From Deltaproteobacteria bacterium (GTDB lineage Bacteria; Desulfobacterota; Desulfobacteria; Desulfobacterales; Desulfosarcinaceae): a DNA stretch of 64,000 nucleotides. The position numbers and the translations under genes are program-made. The notes under the pieces are model-generated. The model was not told where the DNA came from, ran no database searches, and worked only from the letters and a program-made list of their open reading frames with translations. Positions 26,873-43,660 of the stretch are shown piece after piece (the first letter of the stretch is position 1; each line of letters begins with the position of its first letter). The DNA is taken from positions 62,001-126,000 of the forward strand of contig JAKALP010000009.1 of NCBI GenBank assembly GCA_021824175.1. The letters are read 5' to 3'.

Positions 26873-29062
26873 CTAAAAAAGAAGTTTGACATCCATATTC
26901 ATGCTTCGTGATTCACTCTTCTGGATCGTATCTTCGGTTTCGCTTTGAGTAAAGTAAACGTTCATCAGGATATGTCTTCCGATGGTCCAGCGCGCGCTGG
27001 GCCCGATGACCCGTTCGATTTGATCGGTTTCGGGACGCAGTACTTCGCTGTATAAAAATGAGAACTGCAGATCGCCCTGGGGGAAGGGGGACCAGTTGAT
27101 GGAGTAGTTTTGAAAGGTATCCGAGCGCTGGGACCGCTCCACGACGTTCATCTTGGCGAAGAGACTCAGGTTGGGAAACAGCAGGAAGAACCCTTGTATG
27201 TCATATTGGGTCTCCACCTGGCTTTCCGTGTCCGGCTCGGAAGGTTCGATCAGCTTGTACGAGTAGGAGGAGTTCAGCGTCAGTTTTTCCGAGGGGGTTA
27301 GACTGGTACCGCTGCGCAGCATTTTGCTGGTGTCGCGGGTGCCGTCGGCCAGCTTGTCCCAGCCATAGCCGAGATCCAGGAACATGCTCCAGCCCTTGTA
27401 GAGGATGGCGTTGGTGCGCAAAAAGACGGAATCTTGCGTCGCATTCTGGTCTTCAAAAACGCTTCGGCCGCTATAGGTCAAGGCTTGGTTCAAGGTGGCC
27501 AGCCAGGCCGCTCGAAGCGAGGCGCCGTAGGAGTAATCGACGGAGGTCTGTTGGTAGCTGTTGTTATTGTCCGTGCGTTGAACGTTGGCGCTGGAAGAAT
27601 AGGTGGAATTAAAAATATGATTCATAAAGACGTCATTGGTCAACATGGTGCGTTCAGCCTGCAGCGGGTCCTGCGTTTGCCGGCTGTGCAGCAGGTTATA
27701 CCCCACGATGGTTTGCTTGCCCAGACGGCTCTGCAGGTTGAGATTGTAGTTGTGGTAGACGGTGGTGGTATTCTGGGCTGACTGTTCGCTGGTCTTGGTG
27801 ATGAAAGCCTCCATTTCGGTCACAAAGATATTGGCGTATTGGGACGCGTCGGGCGTGGCGGGCAACAGCGGGCGGGTCACGACCTTGATGAAGCGCGTGT
27901 GCACCGCTGGAAATCGGATTTCAAACCGATTGTCGAATGTCCCGAAAGGAGCCTGAGCCACGGAGGCCACCAGAGTCCAGGTGCTGCCGTCCAAGTTGTC
28001 CGGGCTGGAGTAAACCGACCAGGTGAAGGCGTTGGCAATGGCCGTGGAAAGACGGCGGTCGACCCAGAGCTGGATCTGATCGACATCCGTGGGAAATCCA
28101 AAATCGAGGCCGATATTGGTCAAGGTGCTCTCATCGCCGCCCAGGCCGAGATCCAGACCGGTGGAAGCGGTGGTGTTGCCGTCAATGAGCGTCTGGGTGG
28201 ATGCCAGGGCCGGTCCATCTTCGGGGGTATTGTCCTGGGAAGACAAGCCGGCAAAGCGTAATAAAGGTTCTTCGGTGGTGGCGTTGTTGGAAATGTCAAA
28301 GGTGTTGTAGCGGATTCGATAGCCGGTGTTCAAGGAGAGACGATCGTCGAGGAAGTTCTTGGCATAATCGATGTGGCCGAAGTGGGTTTGATCCTTGGTT
28401 TCGGAGTCCCTCAAGAAGTCTTTGGTGTCATTGAGGGTATATTCATAATCCACGGTCAACTGCCGCCAGAAATCATATTGGGCACTGAAGTTGTAAGTAT
28501 CGGCCTCTTGATTCAGCGTTACGGGATTGCTGGTAGTATCTAAACGCGTGAAGGAAAAATTCCACTTGGGCAGCAGTTCGGTGGAGTTCATACCCATGAC
28601 GGCCGTATACTGATCCCGGCTGGATCGGTTGGTTGGAAGATCGGTGATATCTTCGTTCAAGGTACTGTTGCGGTAGGAGACGCCGGCTTGATACATGGGA
28701 TTGTTCAGGTTCAAATCAATGAAGGGCTGCACGCGCTCGTCCCGGATATCAAACTCCTGGCCCTCGTTGGTGGAAACCGATTTATCCAATTCATAATACG
28801 ACCCGCCGGCAATGGTCAGGTACGGGTAGATCTCCTTGGAGATATCCAGGTTGTAGCGTTGATCAAATCTGGACAGGTTGCTGCTGGTTTCCCGGCCGGT
28901 GTCCTTGAGAGTGACTTTACCGTCAGTGGTGGTGTAGAGAAACTCGCCGTTGAGGTTGAGATTGTCCGCTTGAACCGCGCCGATTCCGGCAGCGAAAAGC
29001 AATGCGGCCGCGAGCAAGTACTTCCTGAGACAATGGGCCGCTTGAAGCGCTGATGGCTGCAT
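26873..29062 (-). CDS. Outer-membrane beta-barrel of electron-conduit locus, with discoidin-like insert
   Basis: 729 residues with a signal peptide (LLAAALLFAAGIGAVQA). Residues ~35-270 and ~430-729 are alternating aromatic/polar strands (for instance YLTIAGGSYYELDKS and ILMNVYFTQSETED) and the protein ends in Phe, as outer-membrane barrels do. Residues ~285-422 differ: TNIGLDFGFPTDVDQIQLWV, FTWSVYSSPDNLDGSTWTLV and HTRFIKVVTRPL form an F5/8-type (discoidin) fold. It starts 3 bp after the propeller lipoprotein stop. Next to multiheme cytochromes it is the obvious candidate for the barrel that sheathes hemes across the membrane. Confidence 0.78.
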   Translation of the reverse strand: MQPSALQAAHCLRKYLLAAALLFAAGIGAVQADNLNLNGEFLYTTTDGKVTLKDTGRETSSNLSRFDQRYNLDISKEIYPYLTIAGGSYYELDKSVSTNEGQEFDIRDERVQPFIDLNLNNPMYQAGVSYRNSTLNEDITDLPTNRSSRDQYTAVMGMNSTELLPKWNFSFTRLDTTSNPVTLNQEADTYNFSAQYDFWRQLTVDYEYTLNDTKDFLRDSETKDQTHFGHIDYAKNFLDDRLSLNTGYRIRYNTFDISNNATTEEPLLRFAGLSSQDNTPEDGPALASTQTLIDGNTTASTGLDLGLGGDESTLTNIGLDFGFPTDVDQIQLWVDRRLSTAIANAFTWSVYSSPDNLDGSTWTLVASVAQAPFGTFDNRFEIRFPAVHTRFIKVVTRPLLPATPDASQYANIFVTEMEAFITKTSEQSAQNTTTVYHNYNLNLQSRLGKQTIVGYNLLHSRQTQDPLQAERTMLTNDVFMNHIFNSTYSSSANVQRTDNNNSYQQTSVDYSYGASLRAAWLATLNQALTYSGRSVFEDQNATQDSVFLRTNAILYKGWSMFLDLGYGWDKLADGTRDTSKMLRSGTSLTPSEKLTLNSSYSYKLIEPSEPDTESQVETQYDIQGFFLLFPNLSLFAKMNVVERSQRSDTFQNYSINWSPFPQGDLQFSFLYSEVLRPETDQIERVIGPSARWTIGRHILMNVYFTQSETEDTIQKSESRSMNMDVKLLF

Positions 29063-29065
29063 CCC

Positions 29066-30481
29066 CTATCTTTCACCCATCACGGCAATGGTATTGGCGC
29101 CATCGGCCAGATCCATGACCGCATTGATTTTTTTGCTGACCAAATCGATTCGAACCAGTTGCTTCCGATCAGGTTGAAGCGCAAAAAGAGCTTTTTCCTC
29201 CTGGTCGATGGATATATAGGCGGTATGGCCATCGGCTTCGATGAGATCAATGAAGGTCGATGCAAAGCGATCGACCACGGCAATTTCCTTGGAGCGGGCA
29301 AATCCGATGTAGAGCAGGCCGCTGCTGGGATCAGCGGTGATGCAGCGGGCGCCCATTCCAACAAAGATATCACTTGTGGCGGCCAGGCGCGCCAAGTCGA
29401 TCACCGCCAGGCTGGCCGAATCGCGCCGGATCACGAACATTTTACTGCCGTCTGGATTAAAGGCCGCGCGCAGCGGCGCTCCCTCGACACCGATGGTCAA
29501 AGCCGCGGACATTTGCGTCAAATCAATCACGGAGATCGTGCTCGAACGGGTATTCATCACAAAGGCGCGCGCTCCCGTGGGAGCGATCACCGCCGAGCGC
29601 GGCCCTTCGCCCACATTGATGCGGTTCGTTTCAACCATGGCCAGCGCATCAATGACGCTGATGCTGTTGGAATCGCTGTTCACCGCAATCAGAAGGCGGC
29701 CGTCCGGGGAGAGGGCCAGATCGATGGGGTGGTCATTGAGCCTGAGCCTGAGACGGTCGACTACTTCGCTTTTGATCAGATCAATGGCTTCCACCATATT
29801 CGCCCGCTCGGCGGCGACATAGGCCCTGTTTCGGATGCGGTCAAGGACGACACCGATGGGTCCCGGACTGGTGGTCAGGGTGTCGACGATCCGCAGACTC
29901 TTTTTATTGAATATGGAAATGGTATTGACGTCGGCATTGCTGATGTAGCCGGTCAGGTTGAGGATCGGGCGATGGGCTGGCGCCAGCGTGAAAAGGGTAT
30001 CTAAGCGGGGGCGGTTGCCTTTGAGCTCCGACGGTTGCAGGGAGAGAAACAGGGTGGTTATCTTCCCCCGCGCCACGTCAAAAGGAAGATCTATTAATAT
30101 GGCCTTTTCCGGCACCGATAGAGCGATTTCGCCTTCCTCCGCGCGTGCAAATGCTTCTTTGAGCTGGAGGGCCAACCCCGTGCAAGAGCCGGGGGGTAGA
30201 ATGGCCGATGCCAGTTGGGTTTGAATGGGTTGGCGGTCGACGCTCCGAATTTCGGGGCTCTGCAATTGTGCCGTGATTTCCTTGCCGTTACTGTATCTAA
30301 CGGAAATACTGCTGATGGTCAGTCTCAGGTTCTGGGCTTCCTGGGGCAATGGCTGAAGATATAAAAGCAGTTGGCCGTCTTCGGCTGATACGGTGCGGTA
30401 TTCGGGGGTGCGGTTTTGGGGCGGGCAGCCCCCAAGGAAGAAAAAAAGAAATAAAATAAGTATCGTGCGGGGATGCGGCAT
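29066..30481 (-). CDS. YVTN-type beta-propeller lipoprotein
   Basis: 471 residues from ATG 30481. The signal peptide ends in a lipobox (FLFFFLGGC|PP). Residues ~160-470 hold repeated blades such as NADVNTISIFNKKSLRIVDT, LAVIDLARLAATSD and AVVDRFASTFIDL, the pattern of seven-bladed YVTN/lactonase-like propellers; residues 40-150 form a separate beta-rich domain. Encoded 3 bp upstream of the barrel gene, so the two are one unit. A propeller at the surface could hold cytochromes to the barrel or bind partners (inference). Confidence 0.8.
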   Translation of the reverse strand: MPHPRTILILFLFFFLGGCPPQNRTPEYRTVSAEDGQLLLYLQPLPQEAQNLRLTISSISVRYSNGKEITAQLQSPEIRSVDRQPIQTQLASAILPPGSCTGLALQLKEAFARAEEGEIALSVPEKAILIDLPFDVARGKITTLFLSLQPSELKGNRPRLDTLFTLAPAHRPILNLTGYISNADVNTISIFNKKSLRIVDTLTTSPGPIGVVLDRIRNRAYVAAERANMVEAIDLIKSEVVDRLRLRLNDHPIDLALSPDGRLLIAVNSDSNSISVIDALAMVETNRINVGEGPRSAVIAPTGARAFVMNTRSSTISVIDLTQMSAALTIGVEGAPLRAAFNPDGSKMFVIRRDSASLAVIDLARLAATSDIFVGMGARCITADPSSGLLYIGFARSKEIAVVDRFASTFIDLIEADGHTAYISIDQEEKALFALQPDRKQLVRIDLVSKKINAVMDLADGANTIAVMGER

Positions 30482-30616
30482 GGGCAAAAGATGATGTTAG
30501 CGTTGTTGGTTGAAGCACAACCGTGGTTATGGAGACAACGGCCTGCGGGAGCCTGTGTGTGCCTTGCGCGTTGGCGCACGCACTTATCCTAATACCACTA
30601 AATCCGGGGAATGGTC

Positions 30617-30650
30617 AAAAAAGGCTGACGAAGGGATCTCGTCAGCCTTT
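30617..30650 (-). terminator. Rho-independent terminator after hexaheme cytochrome gene
   Basis: Twelve-bp stem AAAGGCTGACGA / TCGTCAGCCTTT with a 7-base loop; the minus-strand transcript continues TTTTTT. It separates the cytochrome gene from the propeller-barrel pair, which must rely on read-through or its own promoter. Confidence 0.82.
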
Positions 30651-30672
30651 CGGGGTCATAATATCGAAAAGA

Positions 30673-31854
30673 CTAATCTTGGATGTGGCACTTGTTGCAC
30701 AAACTTCTCTGACCAGTGCCGAAAACGGCGGCTACGTCGCGTCCATAATAGCTGTTTAATTGATCGGTCGCTATAGCGCCAGTGTCGGTGGTCTGCGGAT
30801 GCGAATCCACGAGGAACTGCACTTCGAAATCCCAGCGGCCCGCATTGGTAAAGGCCGAAGCATGGGCCCGGTGGCAGCTCAAGCACATGGCGTTGGAGCT
30901 GGAGCTCGCGCCCGCCGTGGTAGTAGAGCTCAACTGGGTGCGATCGGAAATCTGTCTTTCAAAAGGAACCAAAGCCAGATAAGCGGTGGCGGAGGTGCCC
31001 GTCAAATCGCCGGACCTGACGTACATATTATAATTCGTGCTCAAATTGGAGCCCAAGGTGGCGGTGTTGCTGGCCGGATGGCGATGGGCGCCTACGCCGG
31101 CGGCGATGAAGCCGGTGTGGCAGTTGGAGCACCACTCGGACATGCCGCGGCCGTAGTCGGTGTGGTTGCTGTTGGTTTCATTGGCGGCGCTGGTACGAGC
31201 GGTGGTGGCAGTGGGCGCCGGGTTGGTAAAAGTGGTGGTCGGCGCGGGACGGTAGCCCACATCGCCCAGCAGACGGTAGTTGCCCAGAACGCCTTGGGCC
31301 GGCGTCGGATCGCCGTATGAACCAGAGCCCATGATTTGACGGGTGTTGTTGGCGATTTTGCCATGGGGATCATGGCAGCTGGAGCAGGCCAGTTGCGCGG
31401 AGGGGAAAGTGCCGCCCGGCGCCTGGGTCAAGTCGCTGTCCGCCACCAAACCGAAGTCGGCGGCCACGATGTTATGACCGCAGTTTCTGCCATTGCGGGT
31501 TTTCATGGTGGTGGAACCCGGCCGGGAAGGGAACGTCAAGGTTTTGGTCAGCCAGTAAAAATCGCCGCCCGGAGTGAGGTTGCCGCCGGTGGTGCTAAAG
31601 ACATGATAACTGCCGGAGCCCGAGTGGCAGTTCAAGCAAGTGGAGCTGGGGTCTGCCCCTTTGGTCAGCGAATCCCCGGTGACACCGGGCACGCCCCCTG
31701 GAATAATGGACTGGCCATTTTCCGAGTTGTGCATGGTGTGGCAACCGTTGCAGTATGCCACGCCGCCATCGTGGAAGGCCATCGCGGGAGTGGCCAACCA
31801 CATCAGCAGCGAAGCAATCGCCAGAAGCCTAATAATCGTTTTGATGGGTTTCAT
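30673..31854 (-). CDS. Exported hexaheme c-type cytochrome
   Basis: 393 residues from ATG 31854, chosen because AAAAAGGAGATAAACTGG precedes it. Signal peptide ends TPAMA|FHDGG. Six CxxCH motifs: CNGCH, CLNCH, CSSCH, CSNCH, CLSCH, CNKCH, spread widely rather than packed. The order CSSCHDPHGK, CSNCHTGF, CLSCHRAHASAF, NAGRWDFE matches the second hexaheme protein at 42848-43660, so the two are paralogs. Wide heme spacing with long Ser/Thr-rich loops suggests an extracellular or outer-membrane cytochrome. Confidence 0.88.
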   Translation of the reverse strand: MKPIKTIIRLLAIASLLMWLATPAMAFHDGGVAYCNGCHTMHNSENGQSIIPGGVPGVTGDSLTKGADPSSTCLNCHSGSGSYHVFSTTGGNLTPGGDFYWLTKTLTFPSRPGSTTMKTRNGRNCGHNIVAADFGLVADSDLTQAPGGTFPSAQLACSSCHDPHGKIANNTRQIMGSGSYGDPTPAQGVLGNYRLLGDVGYRPAPTTTFTNPAPTATTARTSAANETNSNHTDYGRGMSEWCSNCHTGFIAAGVGAHRHPASNTATLGSNLSTNYNMYVRSGDLTGTSATAYLALVPFERQISDRTQLSSTTTAGASSSSNAMCLSCHRAHASAFTNAGRWDFEVQFLVDSHPQTTDTGAIATDQLNSYYGRDVAAVFGTGQRSLCNKCHIQD

Positions 31855-32055
31855 CCAGTTTATCTCCTTTTTCTTCATGAGATTCATTTATCTTCCCCGT
31901 AAGAATCCTTTAGCCGATAGATCGTTCTTGCTGGAGTACAATTTTTTAGAATTCCGTGCGGGGGCGCTTTATGTTCTTTGATCGATTGAACGGTTGTATA
32001 AATCACTGTTGCAAAATCTGCTGCGAAAAAATTGACGGCCTCACCTCCTTTGCTA

Positions 32056-33033
32056 TTATTTATAGTTGAGCTTGAATACGCTTACGCCCCGGCTGTTCAA
32101 TTGGGAGATGTACAGCCGGTGGTGGCTATCCAGGCCTAGATCTTTGGGACCGATCAGATTGTTTGATTTGTTGCCGCGATAGCCAAATTCCATCTGGAAG
32201 TTGAAGTTCTTGTCGAAAATCAGGATTACCGATTTCAAGCGGTCGGCGACATAAAGATTGCCCTCATCGTCGGCCACAATGCCGCCCACCACGCCGAAGC
32301 GTCCCGGCGCACTGCCCGGCCGGCCGAAACTGAAGATTTTTCCCTCGGGTGTCAGCTTATAGGCTGTGAAAAGCACGGGGATGGTGAAAAGGATATTTTT
32401 TTCGCCGTCTACGCTGAATCCGCTGATCTGGGTGGCCAGGCGTTTCTTTTCGCTGACGGCCAGCAGCCGGCCGATGTCGTAGCCAAACTGAAATACTCCC
32501 TCTTCATCCGTCACCACGATGAGAAGCGCGCCCTGGTCCAGCAAGTAGATCCGCTCGTGGCGGATAACGATGCGCTCGGCTGAAAAGGCGGAAAACTCAG
32601 GTGGAAGATTTTTGAGGGTGAGTTTGGAAACGGGTTGGCCTTTGTAATCGCAAATCAGGATGGCGGGTTTGGCGTCGATTTGGGTCAACAATAGGATTTG
32701 ACCGCTGTCGTTGACCGCTACGCCGGATACAGCCCCCAGGCTGCCGTCTTCACCAAAACGGTGGATCTCCATGCCTTTGTCGTTGAAGATGATGATGGCG
32801 CCGGTTTTGGGATCGGTGACGTAGATTTCATCGCGGGTCTGGTCGATGCCGATCTGGCCCCAATTGAGATGCACCGGGCCGTTAAAACCGGATAAGTTGT
32901 AAAGGTAAGCAGGTTGAACATCGGCCCACATCTGGCCGACGGCGATCCCGCCAATCACCAGAAGGGATACGAATATGGCGCTTAGGTATCGCTTAGCCCG
33001 CAGCGATCGGCCCAATTGGAGAATCATGGTCAT
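32056..33033 (-). CDS. NHL-repeat beta-propeller protein (minus arm)
   Basis: 325 residues from ATG 33033 (GAGGAAAGCAAC upstream). An N-terminal hydrophobic segment (YLSAIFVSLLVIGGIAVG) exports or anchors it. Repeats of the NHL type follow: IGIDQTRDEIYVTDPKTGAI, GVAVNDSGQILLL, GGIVADDEGNLYVADRLKSV and LGLDSHHRLYISQLNSRGV, giving about six blades. It is a distant paralog of the NHL protein closing the plus arm (38440-39366). Such propellers often occur among outer-membrane cytochrome genes and may act as assembly or docking proteins. Confidence 0.82.
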   Translation of the reverse strand: MTMILQLGRSLRAKRYLSAIFVSLLVIGGIAVGQMWADVQPAYLYNLSGFNGPVHLNWGQIGIDQTRDEIYVTDPKTGAIIIFNDKGMEIHRFGEDGSLGAVSGVAVNDSGQILLLTQIDAKPAILICDYKGQPVSKLTLKNLPPEFSAFSAERIVIRHERIYLLDQGALLIVVTDEEGVFQFGYDIGRLLAVSEKKRLATQISGFSVDGEKNILFTIPVLFTAYKLTPEGKIFSFGRPGSAPGRFGVVGGIVADDEGNLYVADRLKSVILIFDKNFNFQMEFGYRGNKSNNLIGPKDLGLDSHHRLYISQLNSRGVSVFKLNYK

Positions 33034-33367
33034 GTTGCTTTCCTCTTTTGCCCAGCCATTGTTAACCAATAAATGTGCCAAAATGGCGATTTAAATGATT
33101 ACCGAGTGGCTACAGCATGTTAGGTGGGTGACAACGATTTTTTCTAAGGCTGGAACCATGGCTAAACCGGTAAAAACACCAGGTGGAGGTGGTGTTATCG
33201 CCGGTTGCGTGAAGGCCCTTCGAAGGATATGAAATGACAGAGATGGTGGCCCCTTTCGCTCATCGGGCCATGGATGCTCCCGTGAGTCTTGGACGGGCGC
33301 GGTCGCGGCGGGATCCTAGCGGGAAAATTGGCTTGAAAATCGTCATTGAGTATGAAATGAGAAGTTT
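33034..33367. other. Shared upstream region of the divergent conduit operons
   Basis: 334 bp between the minus and plus arms. It holds the sigma-54-like site below and a GC-rich stretch (33160-33230) with short self-complementary pieces such as CACCAGGTGGAGGTGGTG. I looked for a GEMM c-di-GMP riboswitch consensus and did not find one. Confidence 0.4.
33066..33080 (-). promoter_or_regulatory. Sigma-54-like -24/-12 element
   Basis: Minus strand reads TGGCAC-ATTTA-TTGG, against the consensus TGGCAC-N5-TTGC; one base differs. It lies 33 bases before the NHL start codon, leaving a short leader of about 20 bases. Confidence 0.35.
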
Positions 33368-35032
33368 ATGCCTAAATTACGGTTATATCTGCTGATTATC
33401 ACCATGTGGGCGCTGGTATTGCCTTGGCCCGCGACGGCGACTCAACCCAGTGCCATCGGCCCGGACGAAAAGATAGCCTCGGTCAACAAAGAACCCATCA
33501 CCTGGGCGGATATCAGCAGCGAGTTGGCCTCCTTCCATGAAATGAACCTTGGTAAAGCCAAGGCCGGCCGCATTGATTATGCTTCCGTCTTGCATCGGAT
33601 TATCAACACCCGGCTTATTTTGCTCGAAGCCCGCAACATCGGCTTAGACCAATTGCCGGAACTCAAATCGGCCGTGCAATCCTATTCACAGCAATTGCTG
33701 TTGGAGATGCTGCTTGAAAATTACGTCAAAGATATCCATGTGGATGAAAGCGAAGTGCGCCAGGTGTATGAGCCCATGGTCAGGGAGTGGAAAATCAAAT
33801 CCCTGCGCATAAAAAAAGAGGCCGACGCCAAAAAAATAGAAGATCAGATCAAAGCGGGCGTGAATTTTGACCAGGTGGTGGAAAAGGCGCTCCAGTGGGG
33901 CGTCGCCGAGGCCGATGACCAGGGCGTGTATGTAAAAACCAATGATCTATCCATGCCGGTGGCTCAGATCATTTTCAGGATGAAAGTGGGAGAGGTCAGC
34001 CCTATCCTTGCCATCGGCAAGAAAGGCTTCGTGATCTTCAAGCTCGAAGAAAGCCGCATTCCGGCCACGGAAGATCCTGAAATAAAACAGGTCGCCACGC
34101 GCCAGGCTTTGAATGACAAAAGGGTCAAGTCCGCCCGGCAGTATTACGAAGAACTTCGCAAGAAATACGCCAAAACCGACAAAAAGCTGTTGGACTCCCT
34201 GGACTACCAAGCCGCCACTCCCGGCATGCAAGCCATGACCAAAGATCAACGCGTGATCGTCGAAATCGAAGGCGATACGCCTATCACCGTGGCTGATTTG
34301 AGTCAGGCTTTGGAGAAGCAATTCTACCATGGCATTGAGTTGGCGATTCAAAACAAATCCATCAATCGCAGCAAGGAGCAGGTCTTCGAAGATCTCCTGC
34401 AGAAGAAAATACTGCGCTGGGAAGCGCTCAAGCAGGGCATCGACAAGACCGCGGAATATACCGCGCGCGTAGCAAAGTATGAAAATTCCGCGCTGTTCGA
34501 CGTTTTCATCAAAAGGGTGATTATCCCCGAAATACAGTTGGACCCCAAGGAGCTGCAATCCTATTACGAAAAGAATGCGGAAAAGTTCAGCACGCCGCCG
34601 ATGATTCGGATCAAGAGTCTGGTATTTGATAAGAGAGACAACGCCGTCGGGGCCATGGAAAAACTGAGAAAAGGAACCGATTTCGAGTGGCTGAGCGCCA
34701 ATGCCACGGAGCAGGTGGACAAGCGCACCAAGGGATTGCTTAACTTCGACGGCCAACTCGTGACCGTATCCAGTTTGCCGGAGAAGGTCCAAGAGCTCGT
34801 TCAAGGCACGGCTAGCGGCGATTTGCGGCTGTATGAAAGTCCGGCCGGGCAATATTATGTGTTATCCGTTACCCAAATCGTCAAACCCCAGAAACGACCC
34901 TTTGATGAAGTCAAGATGGACATCTCAAAGGAAGTGTTTGATTCAAAGGTAAAGGCCAGCATCGAACAATGGGCTGAAAAGCTGAAAGCGTACTACCCGG
35001 TTAAAATATACAAATCAGAATTCAAACAGTAG
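33368..35032 (+). CDS. Tandem SurA/parvulin-type periplasmic peptidyl-prolyl isomerase
   Basis: 554 residues with a signal peptide (IITMWALVLPWPATA). Two similar halves follow, each with a SurA_N-like helical chaperone part and a parvulin-like part: first VNKEPITWADISSELASFHE to LEESRIPATEDPEIKQ (~40-255), second IEGDTPITVADLSQALEKQF to LSVTQIVKPQKRPFDEVKMD (~305-520). It stands first in the plus arm, 17 bp before the 26-heme cytochrome gene. A dedicated chaperone-isomerase for folding or exporting the barrel or large cytochromes is the natural reading. Confidence 0.85.
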   Translation: MPKLRLYLLIITMWALVLPWPATATQPSAIGPDEKIASVNKEPITWADISSELASFHEMNLGKAKAGRIDYASVLHRIINTRLILLEARNIGLDQLPELKSAVQSYSQQLLLEMLLENYVKDIHVDESEVRQVYEPMVREWKIKSLRIKKEADAKKIEDQIKAGVNFDQVVEKALQWGVAEADDQGVYVKTNDLSMPVAQIIFRMKVGEVSPILAIGKKGFVIFKLEESRIPATEDPEIKQVATRQALNDKRVKSARQYYEELRKKYAKTDKKLLDSLDYQAATPGMQAMTKDQRVIVEIEGDTPITVADLSQALEKQFYHGIELAIQNKSINRSKEQVFEDLLQKKILRWEALKQGIDKTAEYTARVAKYENSALFDVFIKRVIIPEIQLDPKELQSYYEKNAEKFSTPPMIRIKSLVFDKRDNAVGAMEKLRKGTDFEWLSANATEQVDKRTKGLLNFDGQLVTVSSLPEKVQELVQGTASGDLRLYESPAGQYYVLSVTQIVKPQKRPFDEVKMDISKEVFDSKVKASIEQWAEKLKAYYPVKIYKSEFKQ

Positions 35033-35049
35033 GTATTCACGCGACATCC

Positions 35050-37116
35050 ATGATGCATCCTCTGCGCGGTTTCTATAAAAATCCCCTTTTCATTCTATTG
35101 TGCGCCCTGGCGGCGGCGGCCGTTATCATCACCTGCGCCGGCGCGCCGGTGCGCGAATCCGGGCGCTTTGCGCAGAAACAGTGCCTGGACTGCCATACCA
35201 ACTTTGCTTCCAAGTATTTTTCCAAGAAGGATGTCCACGCAGTCGTCAAGGAAAAGAAGTGCGAGGAGTGCCACTTGCGGCACGGCGTGGTGCCCAAACT
35301 CTTGTTAAAGAAAGATATCAATCAGATCTGTCTGGATTGCCACAACGCCCAAAAAATCGGTTTGGACAAACCCCAGATCCACACGGCCTTGCAAAAAGGC
35401 AAATGCGTGGATTGTCACTACCCCCATGCTTCCGACGAAGACCACTTGTTGAAGGCCGCCAATAATGAGCTGTGCTTCAAATGTCATCAGCGCGGCCTTT
35501 TTAATAAGACGGTCGTTCATACGGCCTTGAAAAAAGAGAACTGTTTAAAATGCCACTATTCCCATGGATCGAGCTATCCTGAGCTGTTGCGCAACCAGGA
35601 GACGGCGCTCTGTCTCAGCTGTCATGATCCTCAGAAATCGGCTTTCAAAACCGCCCATGGCGGGTACCCGGTCCAATCTTCTTCTTGCAATAGCTGCCAC
35701 AATCCGCACGCCTCAGCCCAGCCCAAGCTTCTTAAGGCCAGTGCCCATGTGTCCCTGGCCAATGTAAGTTGTGAGAAGTGCCATGTCCCGGCCGCCTCCG
35801 CCAAACCATTTGCCACGCTTCAGGATGGCAGCGCTCTTTGCTTGCAGTGTCATAAGGCCGAAGTGTTGAAGGCCGGCGGGCCGGTGGAGCATCCACCTTT
35901 CAAGGAAGGCAAGTGTTCCCAATGCCACGACGCGCATGCCTCGGAGAACCCTCGCCTTCTGGCGCGGCCCGACAATGCCTTGTGCTACGGTTGTCATACG
36001 ACCATGAGTGCCAAGTTGTCCGTGACCCACAAGGCCCTTGAAAAGGATAAAGGGTGCCTGATCTGCCATGCCCAACACAGCGGGCCAAAGAAAATGCTGC
36101 TTAGGGATGACGAACAGGCCCTCTGCATGAAATGCCATGCCAAAACACGGGAGAAGGCCGCCACGCTCATGCCCCACAAGCCCTTTGCCGAAGGCGCTTG
36201 CAGCAAATGCCATGATGCCCATGGTTCCAATTATTACGGCATGCTCAGGGCCAATACCAACACGGTATGCTATTCGTGCCATTACGACTCCGAACAACAG
36301 TTTGTCAAAACCAACACCCATAAACCGGTGCTGGAAGGTAAATGCTATAGCTGCCACCATTCCCACGGCGCGGCGAAGAAAAACCTGCTGGACCTGGACG
36401 GCAATGACCCGCGCCTGTGTGCCCAATGCCATGGCGACCTCATGAAACCCATTGAGGGCGGCACCAATCACGATTCCTTCAAGAAAGGAGAGTGCCGCAA
36501 GTGCCATGCCGTGCATGGCAGCGACTTCGAAGGCATGCTGGTGGCCAAACAGGGGTTCCTGTGTTTTTCCTGCCATGGGACTGATCCCGAAGGGAAAATC
36601 AAAAAGCCGGTCAGCAAACATAAGCCAGTGGTGGATGGCCAGTGCACCCGTTGCCACAATCCCCACAAATCCAAGTTGGGGGATTTGCTTCTGGCCGACT
36701 ACCCCGATTTGTGTCTGGTCTGCCACACCGCATTGAAAGCCAGAATGTTCCCGGAGGCCGAGGCCAATCAGGGACGCAAGAAGAGCGCCCCAGGCGCCGA
36801 AATGGAGAACGAGACCGCCTCGGTGAAGTATTACGTGCATGCGCCCTCGGATCTGAAAAATTGCAAGTTGTGCCATGAGCCGCACTTCGCCCAAGAGCCC
36901 GCATTGGCTAAAAAACCGATTCAACAAATGTGCGCCGAGTGCCACGACTACAAGGCCGATAAGTTCAAGCTGGCTCACCTTAACGTTGACGCGGATCAAA
37001 TGGATTGCAGCAAATGTCATGACGCTCATACTTCTACGGACCCCAAGCTGTTCAAGACAAGCATTCACAAGCCGTTTGCAGAGCGAAAATGCAAAGACTG
37101 CCATATTACGGAATGA
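35050..37116 (+). CDS. 26-heme c-type cytochrome, probable lipoprotein
   Basis: 688 residues with 26 CxxCH motifs by direct count (CLDCH near residue 45 through CKDCH at the end). The hydrophobic N-terminus ends VIITC|AGAP, a weak lipobox at Cys29. Motifs come in pairs: one heme, ~20-40 residues, then 'C..CH..HGS' or 'DAHAS', the doublecysteine-motif arrangement with distal His supplied by neighbours. This high density over an elongated repeat suits a nanowire-like electron path through or outside the outer membrane. Overlaps the 16-heme gene by ATGA. Confidence 0.93.
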   Translation: MMHPLRGFYKNPLFILLCALAAAAVIITCAGAPVRESGRFAQKQCLDCHTNFASKYFSKKDVHAVVKEKKCEECHLRHGVVPKLLLKKDINQICLDCHNAQKIGLDKPQIHTALQKGKCVDCHYPHASDEDHLLKAANNELCFKCHQRGLFNKTVVHTALKKENCLKCHYSHGSSYPELLRNQETALCLSCHDPQKSAFKTAHGGYPVQSSSCNSCHNPHASAQPKLLKASAHVSLANVSCEKCHVPAASAKPFATLQDGSALCLQCHKAEVLKAGGPVEHPPFKEGKCSQCHDAHASENPRLLARPDNALCYGCHTTMSAKLSVTHKALEKDKGCLICHAQHSGPKKMLLRDDEQALCMKCHAKTREKAATLMPHKPFAEGACSKCHDAHGSNYYGMLRANTNTVCYSCHYDSEQQFVKTNTHKPVLEGKCYSCHHSHGAAKKNLLDLDGNDPRLCAQCHGDLMKPIEGGTNHDSFKKGECRKCHAVHGSDFEGMLVAKQGFLCFSCHGTDPEGKIKKPVSKHKPVVDGQCTRCHNPHKSKLGDLLLADYPDLCLVCHTALKARMFPEAEANQGRKKSAPGAEMENETASVKYYVHAPSDLKNCKLCHEPHFAQEPALAKKPIQQMCAECHDYKADKFKLAHLNVDADQMDCSKCHDAHTSTDPKLFKTSIHKPFAERKCKDCHITE

Positions 37117-38438
37117 TCATGCCATTGAGCCATTACAAAAGCTGCCGGATCTACTATTACTGCTTGGTTGCCATCTTGGCGGCCATGGTCATGGCATCGC
37201 CGTCTTTTGCGGCCCACAAAGAGAAGCTCAAGCCAGGGGTAAAAAGCAAAGAGTGTCTGAAATGCCACGTCGAACTTCAAAAAACCTTTAGCAGCCGTTC
37301 GGTTCACCCCATGACCAAAGACGCGGAGTGCCTCGGGTGCCATGATCCCCATACTTCCTACCAGAAGAGTTTGCTCGTGGCGGAGCCCAAGAAGCTATGC
37401 TTGAACTGCCACGCCAAAATCATTCCGGACAAGGCCAGCAGTGTTCATCAAGTCGTAGTGGAAGGCAATTGCGGACGTTGCCATTATTCCCACGGCTCCG
37501 AAAACCGTTCTCTGCTAAAGAAATCGGGCAATGACCTGTGTCTTGAATGTCACCAGGAGATTATCAAGGCCGGCAGTGAAATGAAATTCCCCCATCAGCC
37601 CGTCAAAACCAAGGAGGGCTGCCTCAATTGCCACACGCCGCATGCTTCGGCCAAGGCCGATTACCTATTGAAGAATGATCCTTCCAAACTGTGTATCGCC
37701 TGTCACAAAACCGACAAGCCTGGATTTGCCAAGAAGCATATGAACTACAATGTGGCCGCCAGCAAGTGCGAGGCCTGCCACAGCCCCCATGGTTCCAACC
37801 GGCGTGGCATTCTTTACGATCATGTCCATCCGCCCGTGGCCGAGAATAAGTGCAGCAGCTGCCACTATGAGCCATCTTCTTCCATGGCGTTGAAAACCCG
37901 GCAGACCGGCACGGAGCTGTGTCTGCAGTGCCATAAAAAAATGGTTGCCGAAGCCATGGGTAAAAATCAAGTGCATTGGCCGATGCTGGACAAAACCGGA
38001 TGCCAGCATTGCCATACGCCCCATGGCTCCAAGGCGGCCGGGCTGCTCAGCGGACCGCAACCCAAAGTTTGCGGCCAATGCCATATCGACACCGTGGAAC
38101 TGCAGAAGTGGTCCATCGCCAATCCCAAAAACGAGCATCTGTGTGAACCAGTTAAAAAAGGCAAATGCAGCAGTTGCCACTTACCCCATGCGGCCAACGG
38201 GGATCTGTTGTTTGCTTCGGAAAATGTGTCCGTCGACATTTGCGGTAAATGTCATAAATGGGAATCCCATTCCACCCACCCCATTGGCGCCAAGGCCATT
38301 GACCAGCGCAATAAGAATTTGACCGTGGAGTGCCTGAGCTGCCACAAAGGGTGCGGCACGAGCAACAAACCGTATATGATGCCTTTTGATACCACCTACG
38401 ATTTATGCGTTCAGTGCCACATTGATCGCAAACGGTGA
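37113..38438 (+). CDS. 16-heme c-type cytochrome
   Basis: 441 residues starting at the ATG that overlaps the previous stop (ATGA). Signal peptide YYYCLVAILAAMVMASPSFA|A. Sixteen CxxCH motifs by count, in the same paired layout as the 26-heme protein (CLGCHDPHTSYQKSLL, CGRCHYSHGSENRSLL, CEACHSPHGSNRRGIL, CQHCHTPHGSKAAGLL), so the two share ancestry by repeat duplication. Likely the periplasmic or membrane-embedded partner that feeds or drains the 26-heme chain. Confidence 0.93.
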   Translation: MIMPLSHYKSCRIYYYCLVAILAAMVMASPSFAAHKEKLKPGVKSKECLKCHVELQKTFSSRSVHPMTKDAECLGCHDPHTSYQKSLLVAEPKKLCLNCHAKIIPDKASSVHQVVVEGNCGRCHYSHGSENRSLLKKSGNDLCLECHQEIIKAGSEMKFPHQPVKTKEGCLNCHTPHASAKADYLLKNDPSKLCIACHKTDKPGFAKKHMNYNVAASKCEACHSPHGSNRRGILYDHVHPPVAENKCSSCHYEPSSSMALKTRQTGTELCLQCHKKMVAEAMGKNQVHWPMLDKTGCQHCHTPHGSKAAGLLSGPQPKVCGQCHIDTVELQKWSIANPKNEHLCEPVKKGKCSSCHLPHAANGDLLFASENVSVDICGKCHKWESHSTHPIGAKAIDQRNKNLTVECLSCHKGCGTSNKPYMMPFDTTYDLCVQCHIDRKR

Positions 38439-38439
38439 C

Positions 38440-39366
38440 ATGATGGTGAGACTTTCCCTAAAACCATACATTCTGCTTGGGGCACTGCTCATGCTGTGGA
38501 GCGCGCTGCCCGATTGCCTCCAGGCTGGCGCCATCCGCTTCGAGCATCTCTTCTCGATTTATGCGGATAGTTTGGGCGCACGGTTGAAGTATCCCCAAGG
38601 GGTGGCGTGCGGCAGCGATAACCGCATTATCGTCGCGGATACCGGCAACGGCCGCCTGGTGCGTTATACCTTCACTGAAGACGCCACCAAGCCCCAAAGC
38701 GAAGTATTCAAGCTGGCCCAGCTGCCGTACCCCCAAAAGATTCGCATCCATCCCAAAGGCGACATCTATGTGCTGGACGGCAAACTGCGTCAGATCGCTC
38801 GTCTGGGAGCTCAAGGCAAGTTCATCAGCTATGTGGAGCCGGCCCAATCGCTCCAGGCATCGAGCCCGCTAGTGCGAAGCTTTGATATCGACGTCAACGG
38901 CAACCTTTATTTGCTGGATTTATCCTCAAAGAGCGTCATTGTGACCGATGCCCTTGGGCAGTATATCAGAAGTATTCGCTTTCCCAAGGAGTATGGATTT
39001 TTCTCCGATGTGGCCGTGGACCAGGCGGGCAATGTGCTGCTCGTCGACAGCATCAACGCCATGCTTTATTCCGCGGGAGGCGGCAGCGCCGAATTCGCCC
39101 CCATGAGCGCCCGGTTAAAAGAATACATGCGCTTTCCCACCGGTCTGGTGGTGGAACCCAAAGGCCGCATTTTTGTGGTGGATCGCAACGGCAGTAAAAT
39201 CATTATCCTGGCAAGCAACGGGGTTTACGTTGATCGCCTATCCGCCATGGGCTGGAAAGAGGGCCTGCTTAATTATCCCTTCCAAATGTGCCTCAACGGC
39301 CAGAATCAGGTGATTGTGGCGGACACCAACAATCACCGCATCCAGTTTTTCGAAGAACTTAAATAA
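38440..39366 (+). CDS. NHL-repeat beta-propeller protein (plus arm)
   Basis: 308 residues from ATG 38440, one base after the 16-heme stop, so translation is coupled. N-terminal signal (YILLGALLMLWSALPDCLQA). Blades read GVACGSDNRIIVADTGNGRL, SFDIDVNGNLYLLDLSSKSV, VAVDQAGNVLLVDSINAML, GLVVEPKGRIFVVDRNGSKI and MCLNGQNQVIVADTNNHRIQ. It ends the plus arm. The symmetry, an NHL gene in both arms, suggests the propellers are structural members of the complex. Confidence 0.85.
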   Translation: MMVRLSLKPYILLGALLMLWSALPDCLQAGAIRFEHLFSIYADSLGARLKYPQGVACGSDNRIIVADTGNGRLVRYTFTEDATKPQSEVFKLAQLPYPQKIRIHPKGDIYVLDGKLRQIARLGAQGKFISYVEPAQSLQASSPLVRSFDIDVNGNLYLLDLSSKSVIVTDALGQYIRSIRFPKEYGFFSDVAVDQAGNVLLVDSINAMLYSAGGGSAEFAPMSARLKEYMRFPTGLVVEPKGRIFVVDRNGSKIIILASNGVYVDRLSAMGWKEGLLNYPFQMCLNGQNQVIVADTNNHRIQFFEELK

Positions 39367-42847: not shown

Positions 42848-43660
42848 CTAAAAGGTATGACACTCCAGGCAGCCCTGGGAACTTTTGCCGTAATCCCAAC
42901 GCATGGCATCCTGATAGGCGCTGCCGTGGGCCCGGTGGCAGGTGAGGCAAAAGACCTGCCCGTCACGGGCATTGCCATTGCCCTGTGGGAATTGGGCTAT
43001 GGTGACGCGCTGATCCAACCGCGCCCAGTGGTTGAAATTCGCCTTTGGCGCGCTCGAGATGTAAATGTCCACCGGATGCCGTTGCCGCGCCGCCGAAGTG
43101 CCGGCATTGCCGAATCGTTGATGGCAGGCGCCACAAAAAGTGGAGATGCCGGAGATATAGAGGTTGTTTTGATAGCCCGGATCAGAATCGCACTGGACCA
43201 GGGTTTGGACGCCGTTGATCTTCTTCTTTAGATTTCGGCAGTTGCCATTGGCGTGGGGATCATGGCAGCTCAGGCAGGTAAATTCGGGCAACGGTTGCCC
43301 GCCAGGCGGCGTCAATCCCAGGGTCAGGTCCATATTGGCCAAATTGTGCCCCATGCCGTCAGCATAGAGAGTGGCCGTGAATGAACCGCCAGCCAGCTCC
43401 TTGCGACCATTGATGACATAGGGGGGATTGAGTCCCGAGGCGTCCAGCTCGGCATCGTGACATGAGAAACAGAGTGCCGAGGCGGGCTGTCGCAGATCGC
43501 GGGACGAGTGCTTTTTTGATGTTTTTCCAGTGGGTAAGTGGCAGGTGGTGCAGTTCAAGCCTTCGTGGGAAGCCAGGGTGGTTGAGGTTGGGACGATGAT
43601 CAGCAGGCAAAGGAAAAGAAATAATCCAAAGTTGCGTAGATAACCAGCCAGGATCAGCAC
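42848..43660 (-). CDS. Second exported hexaheme c-type cytochrome
   Basis: 270 residues from a GTG start with GTGGAGGTGGAAG upstream. Signal peptide FLFLCLLIIVPTSTTLA. Six CxxCH motifs: CTTCH, CFSCH, CLSCH, CGACH, CLTCH, CLECH. The order CLSCHDPHANG, CGACHQRFGN, CLTCHRAHGSAY, AMRWDYG parallels the 393-residue hexaheme protein at 30673-31854; this one is shorter between hemes 2 and 4. It lies 3.5 kb beyond the main conduit locus on the minus strand and may be an alternative or soluble partner. Confidence 0.88.
   Translation of the reverse strand: MLILAGYLRNFGLFLFLCLLIIVPTSTTLASHEGLNCTTCHLPTGKTSKKHSSRDLRQPASALCFSCHDAELDASGLNPPYVINGRKELAGGSFTATLYADGMGHNLANMDLTLGLTPPGGQPLPEFTCLSCHDPHANGNCRNLKKKINGVQTLVQCDSDPGYQNNLYISGISTFCGACHQRFGNAGTSAARQRHPVDIYISSAPKANFNHWARLDQRVTIAQFPQGNGNARDGQVFCLTCHRAHGSAYQDAMRWDYGKSSQGCLECHTF

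Follow-up and report, generated by a model that had tools for sequence, protein, structure and literature searches.

A two-arm locus of eight genes

The window analysed here is a stretch of 64,000 nucleotides on contig C47 (JAKALP010000009.1) of a 6.07 Mb genome from a bacterium of the Desulfobacterales, and its subject is a locus of multiheme cytochromes, beta-propellers and an outer-membrane barrel at positions 26873 to 39366. An earlier note on this DNA had described eight genes that diverge in two arms, three of them carrying 6, 26 and 16 heme-binding motifs. A check of the open reading frames (ORFs) of the window places all eight at the same positions and strands, and counts of CXXCH motifs in the translations agree (six in the hexaheme, 26 in the 26-heme and 16 in the 16-heme protein). 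Shuffled copies of the same three proteins carry on average 0.02, 0.31 and 0.21 such motifs, with maxima of 1, 3 and 3 in 2000 shuffles.

The locus is almost certainly a member of the family built on paired 26-heme and 16-heme cytochromes that is called osc in Geobacter and Oet in sulfate reducers, which we infer to be a single family. The two cytochrome genes are adjacent on the same strand, with a gene for a PPIC-type peptidyl-prolyl isomerase (PPIase) directly upstream and a propeller gene after the 16-heme gene; a barrel, a propeller lipoprotein and a hexaheme cytochrome of the OmcS family lie in the same cluster, and OscF/OscG-like genes are present in the genome. The putative assignments of OscD to OscH used here follow gene order. 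The features, with the evidence for each in brackets, are:

26873..29062, minus strand: outer-membrane beta-barrel, 729 amino acids, with a CBM32/F5-8C-like insert at about residues 290-425 (AlphaFold2, Foldseek, family profile, homologs)
29066..30487, minus strand: YVTN-type beta-propeller lipoprotein with lipobox LGGC, likely ATG at 30481 (Pfam, NCBIfam, homologs beside the barrel)
30673..31887, minus strand: hexaheme OmcS-family cytochrome, putatively in the OscC (GSU2501) position by synteny (phmmer, identity, histidine set)
32056..33081, minus strand: exported NHL propeller, likely ATG at 33033 (Pfam, homologs)
33082..33367, no strand: intergenic stretch between the arms (site scan)
33368..35032, plus strand: double-parvulin periplasmic protein, putatively OscH-like by position (Pfam, homologs, alignment)
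35050..37116, plus strand: 26-heme cytochrome, OscI/GSU2495-like, with lipobox-like IITC (CXXCH count, homologs, ligand columns, Foldseek)
37089..38438, plus strand: 16-heme cytochrome, OscJ/GSU2494-like (CXXCH count, homologs, ligand columns)
38386..39366, plus strand: NHL propeller, likely ATG at 38440, last gene of the core (Pfam, homologs)
42848..43660, minus strand: second hexaheme cytochrome, 3.5 kb downstream of the locus, membership uncertain (CXXCH count, distant homologs)

Pfam recognises a YNCE/lactonase-type propeller, NHL repeats, two PPIC-type stretches and paired CXXCH repeats in the locus, and NCBIfam recognises YVTN repeats. The likely starts of the lipoprotein and of both NHL genes were corrected by reading the translations.

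The hexaheme cytochrome and the osc cluster

The hexaheme protein matches OmcS (6EF8) over the full chain (phmmer, E 1.3e-79), with 42.6% identity over 413 columns. All 12 ligand-type histidines of OmcS are present in it, namely the six CXXCH histidines and His 2, 16, 110, 147, 257 and 335. Of these, His16, which we take to be the inter-subunit heme ligand of OmcS, is kept in 37 of 42 rows. In excerpts of PMC12954529, OmcS is described as having an interfacial heme common to neighbouring subunits. The possibility that the window encodes OmcS itself was rejected, as a branch with a support of 100 (Shimodaira-Hasegawa-like approximate likelihood ratio test) in a 43-row tree sets its protein apart from G. 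sulfurreducens OmcS, and the protein clusters with two-arm relatives of its own taxonomic order. From its sequence it is filed as a member of the OmcS family and not as OmcS. The host genome has no other close OmcS-family gene; the one further match (E 1e-3) is in the downstream hexaheme gene. An OmcS-family gene stands directly before the propeller lipoprotein in 24 of the 42 non-OmcS rows, including the window and L144 (loci are cited by L number).

The earlier note was right about the six hemes of this protein and missed its kinship with OmcS, and hence the closest relative of the locus. Because the hexaheme is an OmcS-family cytochrome, that relative is the osc (omcS companion) cluster of Geobacter sulfurreducens, GSU2501-GSU2493, which likewise combines an OmcS-family hexaheme, a 26-heme and a 16-heme cytochrome (GSU2494, presumably with 16 hemes), a PPIase and propellers. 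The comparison was made with related Geobacter and Geomonas loci, G. sulfurreducens itself not being among the 80 loci of the alignment scan described below. Unlike the osc cluster, which lies on one strand, the window has two divergent arms; its OscF/OscG-like genes are 50 kb away, and its genome has a single close OmcS-family gene. In excerpts of the respective papers, GSU2501 and the block GSU2500-GSU2493 are tied to OmcS nanowire maturation and secretion, with 26 hemes in GSU2495 (PMC12977616); GSU2501, GSU2495 and GSU2494 are named oscC, oscI and oscJ, and roles are proposed for OscD to OscH (PMC13194489); the omcS region is reported to hold lipoprotein GSU2497 and six other cytochromes (PMC3495685); and Gbem_1124 is the equivalent of GSU2495 (PMC2996986). 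According to PMC12307469, the route by which OmcS filaments are secreted, and the way they are anchored in the membrane, are still speculative.

The two large cytochromes and their natural fusions

The 26-heme protein scores 302.7 bits against the NCBIfam DmsE-family decaheme model (cut-off 192.2; whole protein, over five stretches). Its structural model (predicted local distance difference test, pLDDT, 89.6) has one Foldseek match below E 0.001, MtrA (6r2q_A; template modelling (TM) scores 0.13/0.31, 285 columns), and the same chain is matched by sequence at E 1.8e-14. The molecule name printed for that chain does not fit; we take the 6R2Q chains to be MtrA and MtrB of Shewanella. Across the 26-heme family, 90% conservation over 51 rows is reached or exceeded by the 26 CXXCH histidines and by exactly 26 others, as expected of a wire whose hemes would all be bis-histidine ligated. 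In the 16-heme family the 16 heme histidines and ten distal ones are conserved in at least 90% of 77 rows, and another three in 75-82%; with fewer distal than heme histidines, some hemes may borrow a ligand from a partner or have none. As a separate observation, in one alignment a lipobox-like cysteine precedes the first heme in 27 of 51 26-heme proteins, and membrane anchoring may therefore differ between lineages.

Gene order and heme counts were compared in 91 distinct loci, with the window left out. The 90 complete 26-heme ORFs carry 26 motifs in 80 cases, 25 in two and 42 in eight, and the 16-heme ORFs have 16 motifs in 68 of 75, 15 in six and 11 in one that is cut by its contig. The eight single ORFs of 42 motifs (L058, L092, L097, L107, L108, L109, L111 and L113) are fusions of a 26-heme with a 16-heme protein, and a separate 16-heme gene is listed in none of these loci. 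Between motifs 26 and 27 they have 17-28 residues from cysteine to cysteine and, by eye, no second signal peptide; the C-terminal part is best matched by the 16-heme protein in five and by the 26-heme protein in three. In the 26-heme tree the fusions are not placed together, and three changes of the fusion state are required, each of them forced by branches with good support. Because a 42-heme ORF replaces the pair in 8/90 loci through three forced changes, the two cytochromes probably form one heme chain. Single 42-heme ORFs are a new observation here; a limited literature search, judged by titles, found no report of 42-heme cytochromes, which may still have been published.

Barrel, double parvulin and displaced lipoproteins

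Neither Pfam nor NCBIfam matches the barrel at E 0.01. Its AlphaFold2 model (mean pLDDT 90.1) has an inserted region with 11 strands on the N-terminal and 17 on the C-terminal side, counted by hand from the predicted strand list; following an odd strand, the insert would face outward given a periplasmic N-terminus. Among the 50 of 897 Foldseek matches listed, the highest TM score belongs to MtrB (6r2q_B, 0.42/0.46, below 0.5), which ranks fourth by E-value. At the insert, the family profile matches YeCBM32 (E 8.5e-5), and W362, the sole invariant column among 45 barrels, sits in this CBM32-like region. Excerpts of PMC10553843 contain no occurrence of a discoidin domain on such a barrel and a limited literature search found none, though one may still be published. 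Single-sequence searches with the barrel gave 11 pattern matches in named genomes, none confirmed, and only the window's own genome among 60 genomes of relatives. That the barrel is unique to this host was nevertheless rejected, since homologs turned up widely by way of neighbouring genes, with one inside the fetched stretch in 66 of the 91 loci; the barrel is therefore fast-evolving and not unique.

The locus resembles MtrCAB (6R2Q) in an MtrA-like cytochrome, by predicted fold and by sequence, and may resemble it in a possibly MtrB-like barrel. It differs in having 26 hemes where MtrA has 10, in the sugar-binding-like domain inserted in the barrel, and in that no MtrC-like gene was recognised in the locus.

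Both parvulin domains align, at low identity, to PrsA, CBF2 and a Par-type isomerase. The window has S145 and V222 in the one domain and S417 and Y496 in the other at the positions which we take to be those of the catalytic histidine pair of parvulin. Among 66 family rows histidine occurs at the second site in six rows per domain and at the first in at most three. Because both domains lack this pair, the double parvulin is more likely a holding chaperone than an isomerase, and the earlier description of it as a dedicated isomerase is doubtful.

Relatives with a colinear layout encode, between barrel and PPIase, a GNA1162-like lipoprotein and a longer relative whose C-terminal stretch is GNA1162-like. 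Such OscF/OscG-like genes were not found within the window. Their loss from the host was considered and rejected, since a genome search located them side by side at C47:36471-38145 (E 1.2e-77 and 5.6e-133), on the same contig but outside the window, which begins 24 kb further on; the barrel is about 50 kb away. In the two farther-reaching two-arm stretches of the same taxonomic order, L144 and L146, barrel, OscF and OscG follow in sequence. The earlier proposal of a complete, self-contained conduit is therefore not supported. The published core being four genes, adjacency of OscF/OscG to the barrel is not treated as defining.

By eye, a histidine kinase and a sigma-54-type regulator adjoin the displaced pair, and further on lie two sets of a multiheme, a b561-type and a triheme cytochrome. 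Near these genes and outside the window, C47:19686-32617 holds a second electron-transfer cluster. It contains a frame of 892 codons with 20 CXXCH motifs, an NHL propeller, and cytochromes with seven hemes (two), six (two) and five (one), as well as two b561-type cytochromes that are each paired with a triheme one. Separately, OscG-like proteins with an N-terminal tandem-repeat extension were seen by eye at L042:4691-8143 and L061:5511-7793.

Gene order across genomes

The earlier note had called for a comparison of gene order across Desulfobacterota, and the order proves to be widely conserved. A PPIase search of 247 genomes of the phylum (E 1e-20) gave 16 matches including the window, and all 15 other positive genomes carry the 26-heme gene. 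In the six closest (L022-L027), whose fetched stretches end nearby, the barrel, lipoprotein, PPIase, 26-heme, 16-heme and second NHL genes are present in 6/6, the hexaheme in 5/6 and the first NHL gene in 2/6, at 27-50% identity; the propeller lipoprotein lies beside the barrel in all six at 29-37% identity, the L025 copy, cut by its stretch, being included in these figures. An alignment scan of named sequences with the 26-heme protein, of which the best 80 of 455 confirmed loci were used, extends the family, going by title, to Geobacter, Geomonas, Anaeromyxobacter, Nitrospirota, Acidobacteria, Zixibacteria, Rokubacteria, Gemmatimonadales and others. The PPIase gene is immediately upstream of the 26-heme gene in 82 of the 91 loci, and homologs of all eight genes occur together in, for example, L039, L044, L046, L053, L083 and L144.

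The divergent layout is rarer. The barrel is on the strand of the 26-heme gene in 63 of 66 loci and on the opposite strand in three (L039, L040 and L067), which together with L038, L037 (whose contig begins inside the PPIase gene) and the window form one group in the 26-heme tree with a support of 100. Within the window's taxonomic order the PPIase is found at E 1e-15 in 11 of 389 genomes, the window included; among the other ten, five match closely (E <1e-140). Four of these five have the divergent start (L144, L145, L146 and L148), the contig of L147 being too short; L145 and L146 are taken to be the same contigs as L038 and L039.

The earlier placing of the locus among the outer-membrane electron-transfer loci of sulfate-reducing partners of methanotrophic archaea is borne out by the operon known from SEEP-SRB1, whose PPIase, 26-heme, 16-heme and propeller genes occur in the same order in genome C00003106 (L091), with identities of 33% and 35% for the two cytochromes. 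Unlike L091, the window falls on another branch of the 26-heme tree and has an OmcS-type hexaheme, none being listed in the 8.8 kb L091 contig. Excerpts of PMC5539420 (Skennerton 2017) describe this four-gene core and no known porin there, and those of PMC10553843 (Murali 2023) assign C00003106 to Seep-SRB1g and place the cassette's omcX/omcS-like genes in positions like those of Geobacter omcS and omcT. A similar 26-heme and PPIase operon is reported, in excerpts of PMC12246660, from a metagenome-assembled genome of class QYQD01, another sulfate-reducing bacterium.

Host and surroundings of the locus

Because DsrA is present (615 bits, cut-off 393), the host is probably a sulfate reducer; its phylum also holds Geobacter. 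In its genus the PPIase occurs in one of 11 genomes, its own. The GC content of the locus (53.8%) is lower than that of its flanks (56.2% and 57.5%), and the family reaches across phyla; both suggest that the locus may have been acquired by transfer. The HI0933-type flank gene is found in three of the ten other genomes of the genus; none of the three stretches shows an empty insertion site or holds a right-flank gene, and the penicillin-amidase flank gene lies on the other side of the HI0933-type gene in one, in the window's order in one and was not seen in one. The second hexaheme protein (42848-43660) has distant matches (26-35%) in osc-type loci, several of them from Nitrospirota and beside 26/16-heme genes.

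Promoter-like and terminator-like sites of the locus are not above chance: seven sigma-70-like sites are found where 9.3 are expected, none of them inside 33082..33367, and an Rfam search of the window gave no match. A short inverted repeat, AACACC...GGTGTT, lies at 33175-33196 between the arms and is possibly an operator.

Proposed mechanism and alternatives

We tentatively favour, at somewhat less than an even chance, a combined mechanism in which the locus would serve both to build an OmcS-type cytochrome filament at the outer membrane and to load it electrically. During heme attachment the long cytochromes would be held by the degenerate double parvulin, the 16-heme and 26-heme proteins would be linked end to end into a single periplasmic chain of 42 hemes, and the MtrA-like 26-heme part would enter the MtrB-like barrel. 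The OmcS-family hexaheme would pass out and polymerise on the outer face; the propellers would assist, as would the displaced OscF/OscG-like lipoproteins, and electrons, in whichever direction, would move between periplasm and filament.

Several points weigh against this mechanism. The MtrA match of the 26-heme protein has low TM scores, and by E-value three siderophore-receptor chains outrank MtrB in the barrel search. For three of the eight fusion C-termini the 26-heme protein is a slightly better match than the 16-heme protein, which is unsurprising for repetitive sequences, and the three fusion changes could equal one gain and two losses. The support is genomic and predicted, and the physiological evidence for OmcS filaments is itself disputed (PMC11077965, in excerpt).

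A pure electron conduit, in which the barrel and the two large cytochromes cross the outer membrane and the hexaheme is merely a local terminal cytochrome without a filament, is a possible though rather doubtful reading. It agrees with the treatment of OetABI as a porin:cytochrome conduit in excerpts of PMC10553843, with the MtrA/MtrB-like folds and with the separation of the window hexaheme from OmcS in the tree; however, it leaves aside the full OmcS ligand set including His16 and the recurrent place of the OmcS-family gene directly before the propeller lipoprotein. Less likely still is a pure machine for secretion and maturation, in which the large cytochromes would serve, with the parvulin, the propellers, the barrel and the lipoproteins, to fold and export the OmcS-family protein, and no respiratory current would be carried. 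Osc proteins are indeed described as folding, secretion and morphology factors (PMC12977616, PMC13194489, in excerpt), but it is difficult to see why, without electron transfer, 26 bis-histidine-type heme sites should be conserved and 26+16 fusions should occur naturally. A chance gathering of functionally unrelated cytochromes and propellers, which could appeal to the unrelated metabolic or chemotaxis functions of the Pfam-matched flanking genes (the downstream hexaheme excepted), is refuted by a gene order that recurs in dozens of loci of several phyla, with the PPIase lying directly upstream of the 26-heme gene in 82 of the 91 loci.

The combined mechanism admits a bolder and distinctly speculative form, in which the 26-heme and 16-heme proteins would be a continuous 42-heme wire crossing the periplasm and plugged, through the MtrB-like barrel, into the base of an OmcS-type filament without an MtrC-like surface cytochrome, the sugar-binding-like domain of the barrel anchoring it to surface polysaccharide. 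If this were true, the gene set would be builder and power socket of a nanowire alike.

Implications

Geobacter is thought to use this gene set to build and wire cytochrome filaments (PMC12977616 and PMC13194489, in excerpt). The set was thus already known; the layout described here and the fused relatives give a hint of the way in which its two largest cytochromes cooperate, and the natural 42-heme ORFs, not placed together in the tree, are a testable hint that both act as one chain. An OmcS-type set in a DsrA-bearing member of a taxonomic order in which the marker PPIase is rare bears on the spread of electric traits among sulfate reducers.

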